Source: an uncultured Rubritalea sp.
Lineage (GTDB): Bacteria > Verrucomicrobiota > Verrucomicrobiia > Verrucomicrobiales > Akkermansiaceae
Length of the DNA stretch: 42,340 bases
Reading direction: 5' to 3'
NCBI GenBank assembly: GCA_937132085.1
Contig: CAKZNV010000049.1
Span: forward strand, 1-42,340
Shown here piece after piece: positions 9,375 through 24,936 of this stretch. The translations under genes and the position numbers were made by a program. How positions within the stretch are numbered: position 1 is the first letter of the stretch; each line of letters begins with the position of its first letter. The notes below the pieces were generated by a model. The model was not told the origin of the DNA, ran no database searches, and was given only the letters and a program-made list of their open reading frames with translations.

Positions 9375-10422
9375 AACTAAGTATATAATTCCTCCTGATT
9401 GCACGATCATAAAGGCTCTAAAGCGAATGGACGAGTTAGTCTGTAAGTTGCTCATCGTGATGAACGGTGATGACTATTTAGGACTACTTAGTGGTGGAGA
9501 CATACAAAGGAGTATAATTAAGAACGCCTCGCTAGAGGATAAAGTGGAGGGTATAATGCGCACTAATCAGACTGTGGCGAGAACCACAGATAGTCATGAA
9601 GCGGTAAAAGAGCTGATGATATCTAAGCGCACAGAGTTTATGCCAATTCTTGACGATGATAATAACCTAACATCAATTGTTTTCTGGGAAGATATCTTTG
9701 GCGAAGAAAAGCGCATCACAACTCAAATTGATCTCCCAGTGATCGTGATGGCAGGGGGAAAAGGAACTAGACTGAAACCTTTTTCTAATATTTTACCAAA
9801 GCCACTATTCCCTCTGGGTGAGAAAACGATTCTGGAAGAAATCTTGGACCGATTTGAGACAGCGGGTAGTAAAAAGTTTTACCTTTCGGTCAATTACAAA
9901 GCAGATTTTATAAAAAGCTACATAGATCAGATCGAGGCGACTACTTACGATATTACCTATTTCAAAGAAGATAAGCCTTTGGGCACAGCTGGAAGTTTGA
10001 GTCTTTTGAAGGATAAAATTAAAGAGCGGTTTTTCGTATCGAATTGCGATATCGTGATTAGTGCTAATTATAGCGAAATTGTTGATTACCATGTGAAAGA
10101 GGGCAATGAAATCACACTTGTAGGAGCATTTAAGCACATTAAAATTCCTTATGGAACATTGGTCACAGACGAAGAGGGATCTTTGAAAGAGCTGAAAGAA
10201 AAGCCGGAGATGACTTATTTAGTAAACTCTGGACTCTATATTCTAGAGCCTCATCTATTAGAAGAAATTCCAGAGGATAGCTTTTATCACATTACAGATT
10301 TAATAGACAGCGTTAAGGATCGCAAAGGTAAAGTAGGGGTCTTTCCGGTAAGTGAAAAAAGCTGGTGTGATATTGGGGAGTGGGATGAATACAGGAGGAC
10401 CTTGGAGTTATTAAAACATTGA
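9364..10422 (+). CDS. CBS-domain sugar-1-phosphate nucleotidyltransferase (PtmE-like)
   Basis: The 352-aa protein has two N-terminal CBS motifs (about residues 5-55 and 62-112) fused to a nucleotidyltransferase domain from about 122. The NTase signature MAGGKGTRL lies at residues 129-137, followed by LPKPLFPLG. This architecture is that of Campylobacter PtmE, a glucosamine-1-phosphate guanylyltransferase in legionaminic acid synthesis, and of related proteins in other surface-sugar loci. It would activate the sugar used by the two preceding genes; the CBS pair may sense a nucleotide. No NeuB-type sialic-acid synthase occurs in the window, so a legionaminic product is not supported. It overlaps the upstream reductase by 11 bases. 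Confidence 0.75.
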   Translation: MKDKTKYIIPPDCTIIKALKRMDELVCKLLIVMNGDDYLGLLSGGDIQRSIIKNASLEDKVEGIMRTNQTVARTTDSHEAVKELMISKRTEFMPILDDDNNLTSIVFWEDIFGEEKRITTQIDLPVIVMAGGKGTRLKPFSNILPKPLFPLGEKTILEEILDRFETAGSKKFYLSVNYKADFIKSYIDQIEATTYDITYFKEDKPLGTAGSLSLLKDKIKERFFVSNCDIVISANYSEIVDYHVKEGNEITLVGAFKHIKIPYGTLVTDEEGSLKELKEKPEMTYLVNSGLYILEPHLLEEIPEDSFYHITDLIDSVKDRKGKVGVFPVSEKSWCDIGEWDEYRRTLELLKH

Positions 10423-17701: not shown

Positions 17702-19006
17702 ATGGCTTTTTTAAAGAATGTTCGCCAACGGGTAGTGGCAGCAAGAAGGAGTTTAGGTTTTCTGAAGAATATTCAGCGAACTCATTTGGCTCATGTTGAG
17801 AAGATGGAACTTCAGATCAACGCGTTGAAAAAAGAGCTTAAAAAGCACACTAAGTCCTCACAGTCATCAGGTGCGAAAAGAGTTGTTTTTGTATGCCACA
17901 ATCCTAGTTTATGGGGAAAAGTAAGGTCTATTCATACTAAATTGATTAATAACCCAGCATTCGATGTAGTGGTTGTAGCTGTTCCTTATAAACATGGGGC
18001 TTTTAAGAAAGCTGAATACCGTGATGGGGGGGTGTATGATTTTTTAGATAAGAATGAAATTGAATATATTCCTGGGTTCAATGAAAAAAATGAATCCTGG
18101 TTAGATTTACAGGATCTCAATCCTCGTTATGTTTTTTTCCAAACACCTTATACTCTTTTCCCCGATATCTACTCTGCTGAGCATGTTTCCATTTTTGCCG
18201 AAGTCTGTTATGTCCCATACGTAGGAATTTTACTTTATCAGGGAACTGTAGAAAGAAGTGCATTACCATTATCATTCTTTGAGCATGTATCTTATGCCTT
18301 TATGCCTAATCAAGAAGAGGCTGATCATCTTTATAAAAAGTTCAATGGGGCTGTGAGTAAGGATATAATTCAGGTATGCGGAGCTCCAATGTTGGATTAT
18401 ACTATTGAAGGACCAGCTTGTGATGAGGGAGCTTGGAAATTAGATAAAGAGGATTTTCGTAAACGAATTTTATGGACTCCAAGGTGGCACACGGCTGAAG
18501 GTAATTGCCATTTTTTTGACTATACAGATAAATTGTTAGATCTGGCGCAAGGTGGAGATAATATTGAACTGCTATTTAGGCCTCATTCTTTATGTTTTTC
18601 TAATTTTGAGAAAACGGGTGAATATACTGCGGAACAACAGGTGGATATACGACAGAGGTTTGGAGATACAGCGAATGCTTCTATCGACGAGTCTGGCGAG
18701 TATGAGAACACATTCCTCTGTAGTGATATTCTTATTTCTGACATGTCCTCAATGCTGGGAGAATTTCTTGTGACCGGCAAACCGATCATCTATACACACC
18801 GCGTGAATTCATTTAATGAGTTAGGTTCCAAGCTTAGTGAAGGCTTTTACTGGGTAGAGAATTATGTGGAATTAAAAGAGACTTTAGACATGCTTTTGAG
18901 GGGTGAGGATCCTTTAATGAGTAAACGCTTAGAGCTAGTAGAACGATATTTTCACATTCCTGAAAATGGAGCAGCATTTGAAATTGAGACTATTTTAAAT
19001 TCTTAA
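17702..19006 (+). CDS. CDP-glycerol glycerophosphotransferase family protein
   Basis: This 434-aa GT-B-like protein belongs to the TagB/TagF superfamily, which transfers a phospho-alcohol from a CDP donor to a glycan. After a basic, coiled-coil-like N-terminus (about residues 28-52) come strands VVFVCHNPSLWGK and VVVVAVPYKHGAF. The C-terminal lobe has ILWTPRWHTAEG, LLFRPHS and SDILISDMSSMLGEFLVTGKPIIYT, which correspond to the family's tryptophan/histidine, R-x-H-P and S-D-x-x-I-T-D-x-S-S motifs. No glycerol-3-phosphate cytidylyltransferase is visible. It lies directly upstream of genes that should make a CDP-linked phosphoramidate, so it may use that donor; this is inference. Glycerol phosphate remains the default alternative. 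Confidence 0.75.
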   Translation: MAFLKNVRQRVVAARRSLGFLKNIQRTHLAHVEKMELQINALKKELKKHTKSSQSSGAKRVVFVCHNPSLWGKVRSIHTKLINNPAFDVVVVAVPYKHGAFKKAEYRDGGVYDFLDKNEIEYIPGFNEKNESWLDLQDLNPRYVFFQTPYTLFPDIYSAEHVSIFAEVCYVPYVGILLYQGTVERSALPLSFFEHVSYAFMPNQEEADHLYKKFNGAVSKDIIQVCGAPMLDYTIEGPACDEGAWKLDKEDFRKRILWTPRWHTAEGNCHFFDYTDKLLDLAQGGDNIELLFRPHSLCFSNFEKTGEYTAEQQVDIRQRFGDTANASIDESGEYENTFLCSDILISDMSSMLGEFLVTGKPIIYTHRVNSFNELGSKLSEGFYWVENYVELKETLDMLLRGEDPLMSKRLELVERYFHIPENGAAFEIETILNS

Positions 19007-19068: not shown

Positions 19069-22000
19069 ATGAAATTAATTATTTTAGCAGCAGGTCAAAG
19101 TAGTTCGATCTCCAGCAGTTCAGATGTTCCACCAGATTGTCTGCAAAGCTTCGACAAACAGTCTACCATCCTGGACAAGACTTTAGAGGTAAGTTCATCA
19201 ATAAGCCAGTGTGAGAGCGTTCTTGTTGGGGGCTACAGAATACTGGATATTATTCAATCATACCCAAGCTTACGTTATTATTATAACCCTACATGGGATA
19301 AGACAGGTAGCTTAGTGACCTTATTGAGAGCTAGCTCAGAGTTTGATGATGATTTGTTGATTGCATATTCTGATGTTGTGCACGATCCCGCAGTTGTTGA
19401 ACGTATGCTTAAGGAAGATGCTGAGATAGTGATCAGTTTTGATAGCTTGTGGCGTAATCGTTATGAAGGGAGAACTAGTGGAGATCTAGAGAGTGCCGAA
19501 GTTGTATACAGGATGGAAAATTCTCAGCTACGTGTAGAAAAATGCACAGGTGAAGATGAAGCTTGTGAGCTAGGTGAATTTACGGGACTGATCCTTATAA
19601 GGAGGGCCGTGCTTCAGCAAGTCTTACCAATGCTTGAGAAGCGGGTGAAAGAACAACCTATGGCTAGTATTATTAGCATTTTCCATGAGTTAAGTATGCA
19701 GTTTCGAGTTCGACCTGTTGATCTACGAGGCAGATGGGCTGAGTTAGATTCAGAAACAGATTTAGCCCAATTCAGGTTTGGGACGAAGGCTGAAACTTTA
19801 TCTCGTCTGGAGGGAATGCTAAGTGAGGGACTAGTTTTACCTCAAGAAACGGTTTGTGTAGGAGAGTGGAGAGCTAGTAGAGAGTCTGTAATAGAAAGGG
19901 TAATGGGGGCTTTTAGTGACTCAGCTGAAGTGGTTGTCAGAAGTTCAGGCCTGGCTGAAGACTCGACCGTATCCAGCATGGCTGGTGAGTTTGAAAGCGT
20001 CTTGGGCGTTTTAGTGCATGATGAGAAAGATCTTAGTGGAGCAATTGATATAGTTTGTAATAGTTTCCTCCGTGATGGAGAGAATGACTTTGATGATAAC
20101 CAGATTTTAATCCAGCCAATGCTGACGGATGTAGTCGCGGCAGGAGTAGTTTTTACAGAGGATATGGAGACGAGTGCTCCATATTATGTGATTAATTACG
20201 ACGAGTCTGGATCTACTGATTCTATTACCAGCGGAGCTGGCGGTGAGCACCGGACGTTGATTGTCGCTAAGTTTGCAAGTGAGAATGTATCGGACCCTAA
20301 AATGCGCGCTCTGATTGACTCCTTAAAAGAAATAGAAGAGCAAACTGGATATCATTCATTAGATATTGAGTTTGCAATTAGGATGGAAGAGCAGGGTAAT
20401 GAGCTGATACCTAAGGTGTATATTCTTCAAGTTCGGGCTATTGCTGCGCAGAAGGACAAGCTAAAAGTGTCTGCAGATGATGTGGAAAAAGAGCTTAAAG
20501 CAGTTAAGAGCTTCATCAGAAATGATAGCTCGGAGTCCAAGTCACTCTGTGGAAAGAAAGTTGTGTATGGTGTTATGCCAGACTGGAATCCTGCTGAGAT
20601 TATAGGAATCAACCCTCGGCCTCTAGCCTTTAGTTTATACCGAAATGTAATTACTGACGAGGTGTGGGGCCGGAGCAGAGAAGAGTGCGGATATCGTCAC
20701 ACCTTCCCTAGACCTGGTCTTGTGAACTTGGCTGGGAAACCCTATGTGGATGTTCGAATGAGCTTTACAAGCTTTGTGCCTAGTAGCTTGCCTACGAGAG
20801 TGTCTGATAAGTTAGTTGAGTATGCTGTAGAAAAGCTAGCTTTACAGCCAGAGTTACATGATAAAGTAGAATTCAATGTGATGCCTACTGCTTACGATCT
20901 TAATTTTAATCCAGTTTTAGATGAACTAAGTGCTTTTGGATTTACTGGAGATGAGGTGAGTGAAATAAAGAACGCCTACTGTAAATTGACTAATGATATT
21001 TTAACAGGGAATCGTATCAGTGTAGATTGTGAGTTGAGTAAAGCGATCAACTTAGAGCAGAGCAGGACATTGATCCAAGCACGAGTTGCAGAAAAAGGAG
21101 TTACTTGGTCAGGTGTAGTTGATTTACTAGATGATTGCCGTAAGTTAGGCTCGTTACCTTTTAGTAATTTAGCTAGATTTGCTTTTATAGGTGTAATTCA
21201 ACTAAAGGGCTTAGTTAAGAGGGGTGTTTTGACTCAGGAAAGAAGTGACGTGTTTTTGGCTAGCATTCAAACTGTAGCTAAAGATTTTGTGCATGATTTA
21301 TCATGTGAATCCAAAGATAAACTGGTTGCTCAGTATGGCCATTTACGACCTGGGACCTACGACATAACTTGCCCTGCATACCACGAGAATTTTGACAGGT
21401 ATATCGATCTGTCAAATAGACCGAGTGCGGAGACTTCTATAAAGTTTGAATTGACTGTAGAAGAGGGGGAGTCTATTTCCTCTGCTTTGGCATCAGCCGG
21501 GATTGAGTGCAATGCAGAGGAGTTGTTTTACTTTATAAGACAAGCTATTGTTGGCAGGGAGAAAGGTAAGTTTGAATTTACAAAAAATCTTAGCTTAGCA
21601 ATGGACTACATGATTGACCTCTCTAGAGAGAATGGGATTGATAGGGATGACTTAAGCTTCCTCCAGATTGAGGAGCTTCTAGAGCTAGCTAGTCGTTCTA
21701 AGCCGAGTAATCTTAAAACAGTTTGGGATGGCATAGTGAAACGCAGAAGGAGGGAGCATGTGATTTCCAGTGCTATTAAGCTACCAGCTATTATCTCCAA
21801 TGAAGCTGATGTAGAGATGTTTTATGTTTCGGATTGTTTGCCTAACTTTATCACACAGAAGTCGGTCACTGCACCCATCTGTAACTTCACAGATAGTGAG
21901 AATGATGTTGATGGTAAGTTTTGTGTGATTGAAAATGCAGACCCTGGTTTTGATTGGCTATTTAGTCATGATATAGCTGGTTTAGTAACTGCATATGGTG

Positions 22001-22149
22001 GAGCGAATAGTCACATGGCTATTCGTTGCGCTGAGTTCGAAATCCCAGCTGTGATTGGCTGTGGAGAATCATTATTCAAGAAAGTCTATGATGCAAAAAA
22101 AGTGCACTTAGATTGCGGAGCTAAAAGAATGGAGATTTTAGGCAAGTGA
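19069..22149 (+). CDS. L-glutamine kinase (PEP-synthase-like) with N-terminal degenerate nucleotidyltransferase domain
   Basis: The 1026-aa protein is a fusion. Residues 1-240 are a nucleotidyltransferase domain whose first ten residues (MKLIILAAGQ) equal those of the cytidylyltransferase at 22817, but the GTRL signature is SSSI and the conserved K23 is D23, so it is probably inactive. From about 250 it resembles PEP synthase/pyruvate phosphate dikinase: an ATP-binding domain (VVVRSSGLAEDS at 288-299, then SMAGEFESVLG) and a C-terminal swivelling domain with GGANSHMAIRCAEFEIPAVIG and phosphohistidine H982. No PEP/pyruvate barrel follows. The C. jejuni homologue type (Cj1418) phosphorylates the side-chain amide of L-glutamine. 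The stop overlaps the next GTG by four bases. A dikinase of other specificity is possible, but the neighbours favour glutamine kinase. Confidence 0.8.
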   Translation: MKLIILAAGQSSSISSSSDVPPDCLQSFDKQSTILDKTLEVSSSISQCESVLVGGYRILDIIQSYPSLRYYYNPTWDKTGSLVTLLRASSEFDDDLLIAYSDVVHDPAVVERMLKEDAEIVISFDSLWRNRYEGRTSGDLESAEVVYRMENSQLRVEKCTGEDEACELGEFTGLILIRRAVLQQVLPMLEKRVKEQPMASIISIFHELSMQFRVRPVDLRGRWAELDSETDLAQFRFGTKAETLSRLEGMLSEGLVLPQETVCVGEWRASRESVIERVMGAFSDSAEVVVRSSGLAEDSTVSSMAGEFESVLGVLVHDEKDLSGAIDIVCNSFLRDGENDFDDNQILIQPMLTDVVAAGVVFTEDMETSAPYYVINYDESGSTDSITSGAGGEHRTLIVAKFASENVSDPKMRALIDSLKEIEEQTGYHSLDIEFAIRMEEQGNELIPKVYILQVRAIAAQKDKLKVSADDVEKELKAVKSFIRNDSSESKSLCGKKVVYGVMPDWNPAEIIGINPRPLAFSLYRNVITDEVWGRSREECGYRHTFPRPGLVNLAGKPYVDVRMSFTSFVPSSLPTRVSDKLVEYAVEKLALQPELHDKVEFNVMPTAYDLNFNPVLDELSAFGFTGDEVSEIKNAYCKLTNDILTGNRISVDCELSKAINLEQSRTLIQARVAEKGVTWSGVVDLLDDCRKLGSLPFSNLARFAFIGVIQLKGLVKRGVLTQERSDVFLASIQTVAKDFVHDLSCESKDKLVAQYGHLRPGTYDITCPAYHENFDRYIDLSNRPSAETSIKFELTVEEGESISSALASAGIECNAEELFYFIRQAIVGREKGKFEFTKNLSLAMDYMIDLSRENGIDRDDLSFLQIEELLELASRSKPSNLKTVWDGIVKRRRREHVISSAIKLPAIISNEADVEMFYVSDCLPNFITQKSVTAPICNFTDSENDVDGKFCVIENADPGFDWLFSHDIAGLVTAYGGANSHMAIRCAEFEIPAVIGCGESLFKKVYDAKKVHLDCGAKRMEILGK

Positions 22150-22820
22150 TCGTAAATAATTTAGATAAGAACGCTAAAAGAAAGCCTGTTCTGCTGGTGT
22201 CAGCACGAGTGACAGAAGAATCTTCTTATGTAGAAAAACGCACCGCTCTGGCCTATGACTATGTTTCATTTCTGGAGAAACTAGGCTACTTGATTATAAT
22301 GATCCCTGCTAATTCTAAGCAGGTGGAGGAGTATTTGCTCATGGATTATCAGGCAGTTGTTCTGACTGGTGGCAATACTTGTCATCCATGTGACGGGGGT
22401 GAGACTCCGAAAGGTTTTTATGCTGAGAGGGATAGAACGGAGAGTCTGCTAATACAGGGTGCTGTTACAGCAGAGAAGCCTTTGCTTGGAATTTGCAGGG
22501 GAATGCAGTTTATTAATTCTTTCTTTGGGGGGCAGATTAGTTATGGAATAGGAGGTCATGTAAATAGAAAACATTCTATATTCTCAAGTGATCCCGCCCT
22601 AGATCGAGCATCAGTGAACAGTTTTCATGATGACGGAGTTGTTAGGGCTGACCTAGCTCCTAAACTAAAAGAACTAGCGAGTTCAGAGGATGGCTATATC
22701 GAGGCCTACATTCATAATGAATTGAGCATACTAGGTATACAGTGGCACCCGGAGAGACAATCTGAAGAATTTGATAGGAATTTAATACAGAAATTTATAA
22801 AAACAGGAAAAATACAATGA
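22146..22820 (+). CDS. Class I glutamine amidotransferase-like hydrolase (gamma-glutamyl-CDP-amidate hydrolase type)
   Basis: The 224-aa protein has a class I glutamine amidotransferase/peptidase C26 fold with a full triad: C117 in LLGICRGMQF, H201 and E203 in GIQWHPER. Family databases would likely label it gamma-glutamyl-GABA hydrolase. Between the glutamine kinase and the cytidylyltransferase it matches C. jejuni Cj1417, which splits gamma-glutamyl-CDP-amidate to glutamate and cytidine diphosphoramidate. It starts with GTG overlapping the kinase stop by four bases, and its own TGA overlaps the next ATG by four (ATGA), which indicates translational coupling of all three genes. Confidence 0.8.
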   Translation: MIVNNLDKNAKRKPVLLVSARVTEESSYVEKRTALAYDYVSFLEKLGYLIIMIPANSKQVEEYLLMDYQAVVLTGGNTCHPCDGGETPKGFYAERDRTESLLIQGAVTAEKPLLGICRGMQFINSFFGGQISYGIGGHVNRKHSIFSSDPALDRASVNSFHDDGVVRADLAPKLKELASSEDGYIEAYIHNELSILGIQWHPERQSEEFDRNLIQKFIKTGKIQ

Positions 22821-23563
22821 AACTAATAATTTTAGCAGCAGGACAAGGAACAAGACTGAGACCTCTTACGGACAATATACCAAAATGCATGGTGCCAGTG
22901 AATGGTAAGCCCATTTTGAAAATACAGCTTGAAACAGCTGAGCGAGTTGGCATCTCTGACATTAATGTCGTCTGTGGGTATCTCGAGGAAGCTATCGCTT
23001 ATCCGAACATAACCAAGCACATCAATGATCGATACGAGACTACCAATATGGTTGAGTCTCTTTTCTCTGCAGAGAAGGTGATGGATGATGATGTGATAAT
23101 TGCATACGGAGACATAATCTATCAGGATGATGTTTTGAGTTCTTTAATTGCATCAGAAGCTCCGATTTCTGTTATCGTAGATTTGGAATGGAGAAATTAC
23201 TGGGAAGCTAGAATGGATAATCCATTAGAGGATGCGGAAAGTTTGAAAATGAATGATGATGGGACTATCAAAGAGCTAGGGAAAAAAGCATCTAGTTTTG
23301 ATGATGTTGAAGCACAGTATACGGGCTTAATCAAATTTTCAAAAGGGATTATGCAAAAAATTAGAGAATTTTACCATAGTCTAGATAGGAGTCAACTTTA
23401 TGAAGGACGTTCATTTGATCAGATGTATATGACTACATTCTTGCAGCTTTTATCAACAGAGGTTTCTCCATTAGTTGCTGTTCCTATTAAGAATGGGTGG
23501 ATTGAAGTGGATGAGCCTAGTGATTTAGACCACGTTAATTTCTACGAGAGAGATAGTAAATAG
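22817..23563 (+). CDS. CTP:phosphoglutamine cytidylyltransferase-like nucleotidyltransferase
   Basis: The 248-aa protein is a sugar-nucleotidyltransferase-fold enzyme. The signature LAAGQGTRLRPLT at 6-18 and conserved K23 in IPKCMVPV are intact; the metal-binding aspartate lies in AYGDIIY. By fold it groups with LicC-type phosphocholine cytidylyltransferases, and automatic annotation may say so. The context (glutamine kinase and amidotransferase immediately upstream, four-base overlap) matches C. jejuni Cj1416, which joins CTP and N-phospho-L-glutamine to form gamma-glutamyl-CDP-amidate. The segments DDDVIIAYGDI and EWRNYWEAR have clear counterparts in the N-terminal domain of the kinase fusion, showing the two are paralogous. 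Confidence 0.8.
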   Translation: MKLIILAAGQGTRLRPLTDNIPKCMVPVNGKPILKIQLETAERVGISDINVVCGYLEEAIAYPNITKHINDRYETTNMVESLFSAEKVMDDDVIIAYGDIIYQDDVLSSLIASEAPISVIVDLEWRNYWEARMDNPLEDAESLKMNDDGTIKELGKKASSFDDVEAQYTGLIKFSKGIMQKIREFYHSLDRSQLYEGRSFDQMYMTTFLQLLSTEVSPLVAVPIKNGWIEVDEPSDLDHVNFYERDSK

Positions 23564-23602: not shown

Positions 23603-24052
23603 GTGGGGTTAATTCAGAAATCTTATAAGAATATGTATAATTTTGATCAATGTTACCAGATTGTTGAAGGGTATTTGAATAGTTATGATGACTCCATTGA
23701 GTTTGAGTCTCATCAAAAAGTGGAGAGTGAGCTGTCGATGGTCAGTGTCTTACAGTATCTAAAAAAAGAGCGGAATACAGTTCTTGGTATAGATATATTG
23801 AATATTGAGCAGATGATGAGACGCTTCGAACTTAAGAAGGTCTTGTTCAAGCAATATACAGTAGAAAACAGGATTCCAGTGCCCAGTGATTCGGAGTTGA
23901 GCCCAAGAGAGTATGAGCTCATAAGTGTGTCGTTTATTAAACTAGGCTGTATCCTTAATGATTTGAGGTTTATCAATGTAGCTTTTAAAATTATTGATCA
24001 GAAAGCTAAGAAGGTTCAGGACTTGGCCATTAAAATCGCACATAATCTATAA
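23603..24052 (+). CDS. Small protein of unknown function
   Basis: I do not recognise this protein. It is 149 aa from a GTG at 23603, or 139 aa from an ATG at 23633, which I consider equally likely. It is mostly helical and charged, with no signal peptide or membrane segment and no obvious catalytic motif; SELSPREYELISVSFIKLGCILNDLRFIN is the most structured part. Its TAA overlaps the ATG of the formyltransferase-like gene by one base, so the two are probably made together and may form a complex. It follows the phosphoramidate genes by 39 bases. The reading frame is supported by its length and the coupling. Confidence 0.6.
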   Translation: MGLIQKSYKNMYNFDQCYQIVEGYLNSYDDSIEFESHQKVESELSMVSVLQYLKKERNTVLGIDILNIEQMMRRFELKKVLFKQYTVENRIPVPSDSELSPREYELISVSFIKLGCILNDLRFINVAFKIIDQKAKKVQDLAIKIAHNL

Positions 24053-24936
24053 TGAAGGAGATGACGAAAATCGATGATTTGGCTTTGTTGGCCAATGAAA
24101 ATAGTGTGTGTAAAGCTTACTTAGAGGCATTTCTGAGTAATGGTTTTTTACCCAATAGAGTGGTTCTTGTTAAGTTTATTTCAGATCCCAAGAAGAACTT
24201 AGGGGTGAAGTCGCTTTTGAAGAAAGTAATTAAAAAGGCTCTCCGGTCTCCTAAGACGGCAGCGACTAAACTGATTGGCATATTTGTTAATAGAAGTGAT
24301 TCTAAGCCTACATTTTCTCCTCCACAGTGGCTAAAAGAGTTGGCTGCGTTCTGTGAAAATAAATCATTACCTTTTCCTCAGTTTAATACGTCAGTTGAAG
24401 AAATTCTAATCGAGAATGAAATAGATTATGAAATATTAGAAGCGAGAACGATTAGTGACACGATAGTGGAAAATTATATACGTAGCTCGGTATCAGAAAA
24501 ATTTATATTGTTCTCTGGAGGTGGTATATTGAGAAGTAATGTTTTAGATTTATCTCAGAGGTTTATTCATATCCACCCTGGGGTAGTTCCTGAGGTAAAA
24601 GGTGCAGATTGTATTTTGTGGAGTTTATTAGTGAGAGAGAAAATAGGAATGAGTATGTTCTTCATGAACGCAGGTATAGACACTGGTGATCTAGTGACTG
24701 CTTGTGAGTATGATTTGCCAAGTATTTCTCTGAGTGAAGTATCTGATGGAGTGGTTCTATCAAATGATGTTGTTCAGTATATTGACCCTATATATAGAGC
24801 TGAGACAATGATTCGGAAAATTTTAGAAACTCCAGACCTCTCTTCTTGGGAGAGCGAGAGGCAAGCCCCTAAGTCAGGGAAGGTGTATTATTTTATGCAT
24901 GATTCATTGAAAAGGCTCCTTCCTAGAAGCATATGA
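24052..24936 (+). CDS. Formyltransferase-fold protein
   Basis: The 294-aa protein carries the core of the N10-formyltetrahydrofolate-dependent formyltransferase family: IHIHPGVVPEVKGAD followed by LWSLLVREKIGMSMF and FMNAGIDTGDLV. The catalytic histidine (H175) and aspartate (D210) are present, but the asparagine two residues before the histidine, nearly invariant in Fmt-type enzymes, is H173 here. The family's first 120 residues are unlike the standard cofactor domain, though FILFSGGGILRS resembles its last strand. It could formylate an amino sugar of this locus or act on another acyl or amidate group. It is coupled to the unknown 149-aa gene by TAATG. Confidence 0.7.
   Translation: MKEMTKIDDLALLANENSVCKAYLEAFLSNGFLPNRVVLVKFISDPKKNLGVKSLLKKVIKKALRSPKTAATKLIGIFVNRSDSKPTFSPPQWLKELAAFCENKSLPFPQFNTSVEEILIENEIDYEILEARTISDTIVENYIRSSVSEKFILFSGGGILRSNVLDLSQRFIHIHPGVVPEVKGADCILWSLLVREKIGMSMFFMNAGIDTGDLVTACEYDLPSISLSEVSDGVVLSNDVVQYIDPIYRAETMIRKILETPDLSSWESERQAPKSGKVYYFMHDSLKRLLPRSI

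Follow-up and report, generated by a model that had tools for sequence, protein, structure and literature searches.

Glutamine kinases with an N-terminal, probably inactive cytidylyltransferase domain in putative phosphoramidate gene clusters

Main

Why does the kinase that opens a biosynthetic pathway carry a relative of a later enzyme of that pathway, when an intact version of the later enzyme is encoded two genes downstream? The question is raised by a 42,340-nucleotide stretch of DNA from an uncultured Rubritalea sp. (contig CAKZNV010000049.1), here called the window, which is a surface-polysaccharide cluster with a flippase, a Wzy/ligase, glycosyltransferases and sugar-nucleotide enzymes. 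A fused kinase, a hydrolase and a separate cytidylyltransferase (free CT) are encoded in this order, with a 4-base overlap at both junctions. We take the three proteins to correspond to Cj1418, Cj1417 and Cj1416 of the Campylobacter jejuni O-methyl phosphoramidate pathway, presumably the kinase, the hydrolase and the CTP:phosphoglutamine cytidylyltransferase of that species. Cj1418, the C. jejuni L-glutamine kinase (EC 2.7.3.13), catalyses ATP-dependent phosphorylation of the glutamine amide (PMC6429109, PMC10971088). The window kinase, which belongs to the same family and has the same hydrolase and CT neighbours, is assumed by homology to phosphorylate the glutamine amide with ATP as well. 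However, C. jejuni kinases (L100 and L114, 774-779 aa) lack the N-terminal CT-like domain of the window kinase. The features discussed below are as follows.

19069-22149, + strand: fused kinase, 1,026 aa, uninterrupted open reading frame
19069-19782, + strand: N-terminal pseudo-cytidylyltransferase domain, residues 1-238 (BLASTP, AF2 model, 42 other kinases with a homologous domain)
19099-19137, + strand: degenerate signature loop S11-SSISSSS...P22-D23 replacing GxGTR(x)nPK, with Arg13 and Lys23 lost
19366-19374, + strand: Y100-S-D102, kept substrate-side Tyr and first metal carboxylate (alignment)
19459-19500, + strand: R131/R135...E144, of which R135 and E144 are kept and are invariant in the phosphoglutamine-CT family
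19735-19749, + strand: W223-x-E225-x-D227, with the second metal carboxylate E225 (LicC E216) kept
19753-22149, + strand: glutamine-kinase core, Cj1418-like, PEP-synthase type, with ATP-binding and swivelling-His domains (NF004508, Pfam)
22146-22820, + strand: class I glutamine-amidotransferase-type hydrolase, Cj1417-like, GTG start, 4-base overlap with the kinase stop
22817-23563, + strand: separate, intact CTP:phosphoglutamine-type cytidylyltransferase (free CT), Cj1416-like, 4-base overlap with the hydrolase stop

The kinase family model NF004508 matches the fused protein with 866 bits (cut-off 501), covering residues 229-1024 and model positions 3-788 of 789. As the match spans only these residues, the first approximately 230 residues are an addition to a standard kinase of approximately 790 aa. 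The core itself has Pfam matches to PPDK_N and PEP-utilizers, and its R291, E297 and H982 are invariant. The hydrolase matches Peptidase_C26 (6e-32); its assignment and that of the free CT are ones that we presume from general knowledge together with the gamma-glutamyl-CDP-amidate hydrolase model NF045546, which the hydrolase matches with 108 bits, under the 250-bit cut-off. The free CT has R13, K23, D99 and E230, and its AF2 model (pLDDT 96.4) finds PntC (6pd2) and LicC (1jyk) among its best structural matches.

The added domain belongs to the CT family

A preliminary description of this DNA had proposed that the N terminus of the kinase is homologous to the CT at 22817, and the comparison bears this out. 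BLASTP of residues 1-244 against the free CT gave 66/248 identities (27%), 48% positives and 89 bits, with an E value of 6e-26 that applies to this single pair, and hhalign of the domain against the CT-family profile gave a probability of 99.8% over 230 columns. The details given at the time were also confirmed: MKLIILAAGQ is the same in both proteins, GTRL is replaced by SSSI (11-14) and PKC by PDC (22-24), and the later blocks DDDLLIAYSDVV/DDDVIIAYGDII and LWRNRYEGR/EWRNYWEAR match. The gap-free start of the alignment holds up to residue 31. A domain extent of residues 1-240 was roughly right, with the end now placed at about residue 238 (19782) and the NF004508 match beginning at residue 229.

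The window domain scores 102 bits with the CT-family profile, and the best other nucleotidyltransferase (NTase) family model reaches 24 bits; judged by these profiles, the phosphoglutamine CT is its nearest family. Conversely, a profile of the fused domains gives free CTs 100-147 bits and other NTases at most 72, which supports descent from the phosphoglutamine CT family.

Structure prediction, which had been suggested earlier as a check, places the N-terminal domain in the NTase fold of PntC and LicC. The AF2 model of the fusion (39 fused sequences) has a mean pLDDT of 89.5 and shows the fused domain as a complete NTase fold; residues 14-17, inside the degenerate signature loop, are its only stretch with pLDDT below 50. 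VIA-align superposed the domain on PntC 6pd2 with Z 25.4 (225 residues, 2.4 Å) and on LicC 1jyk with Z 21.8. Residues 1-238 thus share the fold of PntC (6pd1/6pd2) and LicC (1jyk/1jyl), and the metal carboxylates align, but the domain lacks their GxG(T/S)R...PK signature, which is needed for catalysis. The conserved residues discussed next were located through sequence alignment to PntC and LicC rather than in three-dimensional space.

Catalytic residues are lost and the metal site is kept

Residues were counted after aligning 43 fused domains together with 83 free CTs (free-CT numbering R13/K23/D99/E230). Arg13 is found in 4 of the 43 fused domains, Lys23 in 2 and both together in none, compared with 83/83 free CTs in each case; the full set of R13, K23, D99 and E230 likewise occurs in 0/43. 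The window domain has S13 and D23 at these positions and does not match the GxG(T/S)R...PK signature, so that the loss of the catalytic Arg and Lys reported in the preliminary description stands and extends to the whole group. The N77-M78 motif is also lost in the fused domains, and most have lost acceptor-side T206 (the amine-contact position), D139 and K157. Alanine mutants of Tde-PntC at Arg15, Lys25 and Lys153, which correspond to R13, K23 and K157, had less than 10% activity (PMC6697681).

By contrast, the metal pair (D99 and E230) is present in 38/43 fused domains, against 82/83 free CTs. The first metal Asp (D102, free-CT D99) is kept in 41/43 and the second metal Glu (E225, free-CT E230) in 38/43, as are the Tyr (Y100, free-CT Y97) in 38/43, R135 (free-CT R132) in 34/43, E144 (free-CT E141) in 40/43, the Trp (W223, free-CT W228) in 40/43 and Gly170 in 43/43; the Asp, Tyr, Arg and Glu141 are found in 83/83 free CTs. 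At the D227 position, 26 of the 43 have Asn. D102 aligns with the PntC E104/D106-LicC D105/D107 site, a one-residue shift being allowed at D99 for LicC. The window domain keeps the equivalents of the metal pair, Tyr97, Arg132, Glu141, Trp228 and Gly170, its two metal-binding carboxylates being D102 and E225 by alignment equivalence to LicC D107/E216. Five domains are without the metal pair (L062, L063, L066, L084 and L102), and the first four of these are the four that retain Arg13. We saw no alternative complete catalytic set in the domain that would mark it as a distinct active family. Pseudoenzyme status is therefore well supported by the residue pattern, from which we infer that the fused domain is catalytically inactive.

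The fusion recurs across phyla

A survey of homologues showed that the fusion is no one-off. Homologous N-terminal domains are found in 43 kinases, drawn from the window, plasmid loci and the best 80 of at least 499 relatives in one scan of genome contigs; because the query was itself fused, this list favours fused proteins and gives no fraction of kinases that are fused. By NCBI names the hosts span approximately 13 phyla, mostly as metagenome-assembled genomes (MAGs) and with one archaeal isolate, Haloferax elongans. The other isolates are Marinobacter, Legionella septentrionalis, Pseudomonas marginalis, Vibrio alfacsensis and Pseudohalocynthiibacter, and plasmid records of Vibrio alfacsensis, Pseudohalocynthiibacter and Roseovarius have the same architecture. 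Recurrence in both isolates and MAGs rules out an assembly artefact. One fused kinase (L065) has the same sequence as another (L030). A phylum sample added three kinases, two of them fused (L117 and L118), of which L118 equals L057 in the part compared.

Among relatives of the window genome, a kinase over the family cut-off was found in 0/57 further genomes from its genus, family and order, in 8/384 genomes of a class sample and in 4/388 of the phylum sample, the window's own being included in each sample. The window's kinase is the one fused protein among the eight of the class sample. The phosphoramidate module is thus scattered in these relatives and has probably moved horizontally. No stand-alone version of the domain was found in the 12 genomes with a domain-less kinase that were searched, where the strong matches were the free CTs, and viral contigs held nothing beyond one distant partial kinase. 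The fusion was undescribed in the literature searched, which did not include the primary Raushel papers, where it may be mentioned. The fused architecture is real, recurrent and conserved and, apparently, undescribed.

The free CT was seen in 40/43 fused loci, which is every one with enough flank; L057, L061 and L070 lie on contigs that break off too early to show one. It lies downstream of the kinase in 38/40, usually just after the hydrolase, and upstream in L077 and L102. All 39 alignable CTs of fused loci retain R13 and K23. In the Vibrio alfacsensis plasmid pVa1 (L029), the free CT open reading frame (9563-10189) encodes 208 aa without the C-terminal E230/D232 part and is missing from the PLSDB gene table. 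Domain-less kinases, including those of C. jejuni, have the same neighbours, which makes the domain accessory to the chemistry rather than required for it.

Other N-terminal additions were also seen. The glutamine kinases of L080 (256-3180) and L105 (5479-8370) begin with an APS_kinase domain (Pfam 1e-28 to 1e-31), a candidate for the CDP-phosphoramidate kinase step, and L092, L107 and L111 have N-extensions resembling theirs. In an archaeal Altiarchaeales MAG (L110, 3153-6065), the N terminus of the glutamine kinase is a cytidylyltransferase domain of the Pfam family CTP_transf_like, which differs from that of the phosphoglutamine CT. The APS_kinase fusions mark the kinase N terminus as a fusion hot spot for pathway-type enzymes.

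An ancient fusion under constraint

Duplication, fusion and decay had been suggested as the origin of the domain, which was described as a dead copy of its own partner. That the domain is a conserved pseudoenzyme is supported; that it was copied from its own partner is not. The window domain is 40% identical to the domain of L045 but 26% identical to its own free CT, and the free CTs stay outside a single clade that holds all 43 fused domains (SH-aLRT 98), in a tree that a poor outgroup leaves without a firm root. The tree groups the window domain with those of L045, L036 and L037, and the window's free CT with their CTs. A recent duplication of the neighbouring CT is thereby ruled out, and the duplication and fusion are ancient. 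Within the window's group, L036 and L045 still have Lys23, which is consistent with stepwise decay.

On the kinase tree, a single clade of fused kinases was rejected (AU p 0.0006). That tree requires four architecture changes, which imply domain losses (for example, in DPANN archaea and in a 17-row group) or repeated exchange. If the domain arose once, the most economical account is one fusion followed by losses.

In two close pairs, dN/dS was 0.07 and 0.11 for the domain and 0.05 and 0.10 for the kinase core, with synonymous change near saturation; by these ratios the fused domain is under purifying selection. In another pair, L067 (5803-8871) and L073 (5797-8847), identity is 36% in the domain and 76% in the kinase, which suggests a local relaxation of constraint on the pseudo-CT domain.

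What the domain may do

Residues 1-238 are very probably an ancient, disabled member of the phosphoglutamine CT family, fused to the kinase N terminus and maintained by selection with an intact CT two genes downstream. With the Arg13 pyrophosphate loop, the alpha-phosphate Lys23 and the N-M motif gone, the domain would no longer transfer CMP; CTP is unlikely to bind where both the phosphate loop and the N-M motif are missing. What remains, the carboxylates for Mg and some of the acceptor side, may let the domain bind Mg-phosphoglutamine, which the kinase makes, or a nearby intermediate of the pathway, either to hold it for the active CT or to regulate the attached kinase. Mg-phosphoglutamine is favoured because the pyrophosphate and alpha-phosphate residues are lost while the metal site and its acceptor-side neighbours are kept.

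Ligand, regulation and hand-off are read from this pattern of residues, and we offer the mechanism tentatively, at a little less than even confidence; the explanation taken whole, identity and mechanism together, we regard as evenly balanced. Against it count the dispensability of the domain for the chemistry and its fast divergence in L067/L073. Phosphoglutamine binding is also not assured, because T206, D139 and K157 are mostly lost, and the four domains that lack the metal pair but retain R13 make one ligand for the whole family uncertain. A wider proposal, in which the pseudo-CT family, derived once, is a metal-dependent phosphoglutamine-binding module that couples P-N bond formation to consumption of that bond, is possible but doubtful, and we hold the same reserve about the coupling itself, which would be by allostery or direct hand-off.

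The main rival to phosphoglutamine binding is a docking scaffold, in which the dead domain, by mimicking a CT protomer, would bring the active CT and perhaps the hydrolase to the kinase, for direct transfer of labile phosphoglutamine. Strict co-occurrence, the kinase-hydrolase-CT order and the overlapping genes would fit such a complex, as would the other pathway-type enzymes at the same N terminus (the APS-kinase-like domains of L080 and L105 and the CTP_transf_like domain of L110). Domain-CT distances are also correlated once kinase and hydrolase distances are removed, but weakly (partial r 0.25, Mantel p 0.02) and no more than domain-kinase (0.34) or kinase-CT (0.37) distances. Moreover, the most conserved columns include active-site equivalents, and LicC and Ari-PntC are monomeric (PMC6697681), leaving no known CT-CT interface to mimic. 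We consider docking unlikely.

Less probable still is a feedback sensor that binds CMP-phosphoglutamine or CDP-phosphoramidate and inhibits the kinase. The analogy is with GMPPA, an NTase paralogue without catalytic activity that exerts allosteric feedback inhibition and has GDP-mannose as its ligand (PMC11228364). GMPPA resembles the fused domain in how it may work rather than by kinship: it too is a dead NTase homologue kept beside an active enzyme, but it forms a subunit of its own and exerts its control on GMPPB, its NTase paralogue, whereas the dead domain of the window is fused to a kinase. The retained metal pair and the position of that kinase at the first pathway step are in keeping with a sensor. 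However, the base and phosphate side (R13, K23, N77 and M78) is the part that was lost, which makes binding of a nucleotide product less likely than binding of the acceptor.

A ligand-free structural appendage, serving kinase stability or oligomerisation, would explain why many kinases function without the domain and why it diverges fast in the L067/L073 pair, but it sits poorly with the retention of D102, Y100, R135, E144, W223 and E225 across very divergent domains, and we think it improbable. That the domain is still an enzyme, now acting on a phosphoramidate intermediate in some other metal-dependent reaction, is very improbable despite both metal carboxylates in 38/43 domains, since no new conserved Lys/His constellation replaces the lost residues and the signature loop is deleted or disordered.

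A precedent of another kind is found in PEP mutases (for example, Fom1 and PF12804-Ppm fusions), in which a cytidylyltransferase-type domain is likewise fused to the preceding phosphorus-chemistry enzyme (PMC6697681). There the characterised CT domain is active, whereas the window has both a degenerate domain and an intact free CT.

Most of what is known of phosphoramidate decoration comes from Campylobacter capsules, and the loci described here place the module in many phyla. Many of its first-step kinases bear a dead relative of a later enzyme, which offers a clean case of evolution from enzyme to sensor (or scaffold). Nature supplies kinases of both kinds, domain-bearing and domain-less, for direct comparison, and candidate residues are named here. 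Should control or channelling of phosphoglutamine prove to be the role of the domain, this would show how cells handle a reactive N-phosphorylated amino acid.

Other genes of the window and its genome

Directly 5' of the kinase, 17702-19006 encodes a CDP-glycerol glycerophosphotransferase-like protein with relatives in the Vibrio locus L029 (10531-11613) and in L067; it is a possible candidate for the transferase of the activated group. A formyltransferase-like protein is encoded at 24052-24936 (Pfam Formyl_trans_N 7.8e-7) and has relatives in 17 fused loci (for example, L038 9598-10503, L058 12623-13981 and L049 13519-14883) and in 6 others. In formyltransferases, the catalytic Asn sits in N-x-H. 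In 22/22 motif-search matches of the formyltransferase-like proteins, this position is His (H-x-H-[PS]-G) and the later Asp is kept, so the protein may be an altered-chemistry enzyme of the phosphoramidate pathway. The window genome also encodes a second NTase (L119, C203:27271-27984), which scores 72 bits with the fused-domain profile; its neighbours, judged by eye, are an asparagine synthase-like and a CDP-alcohol phosphatidyltransferase-like open reading frame.
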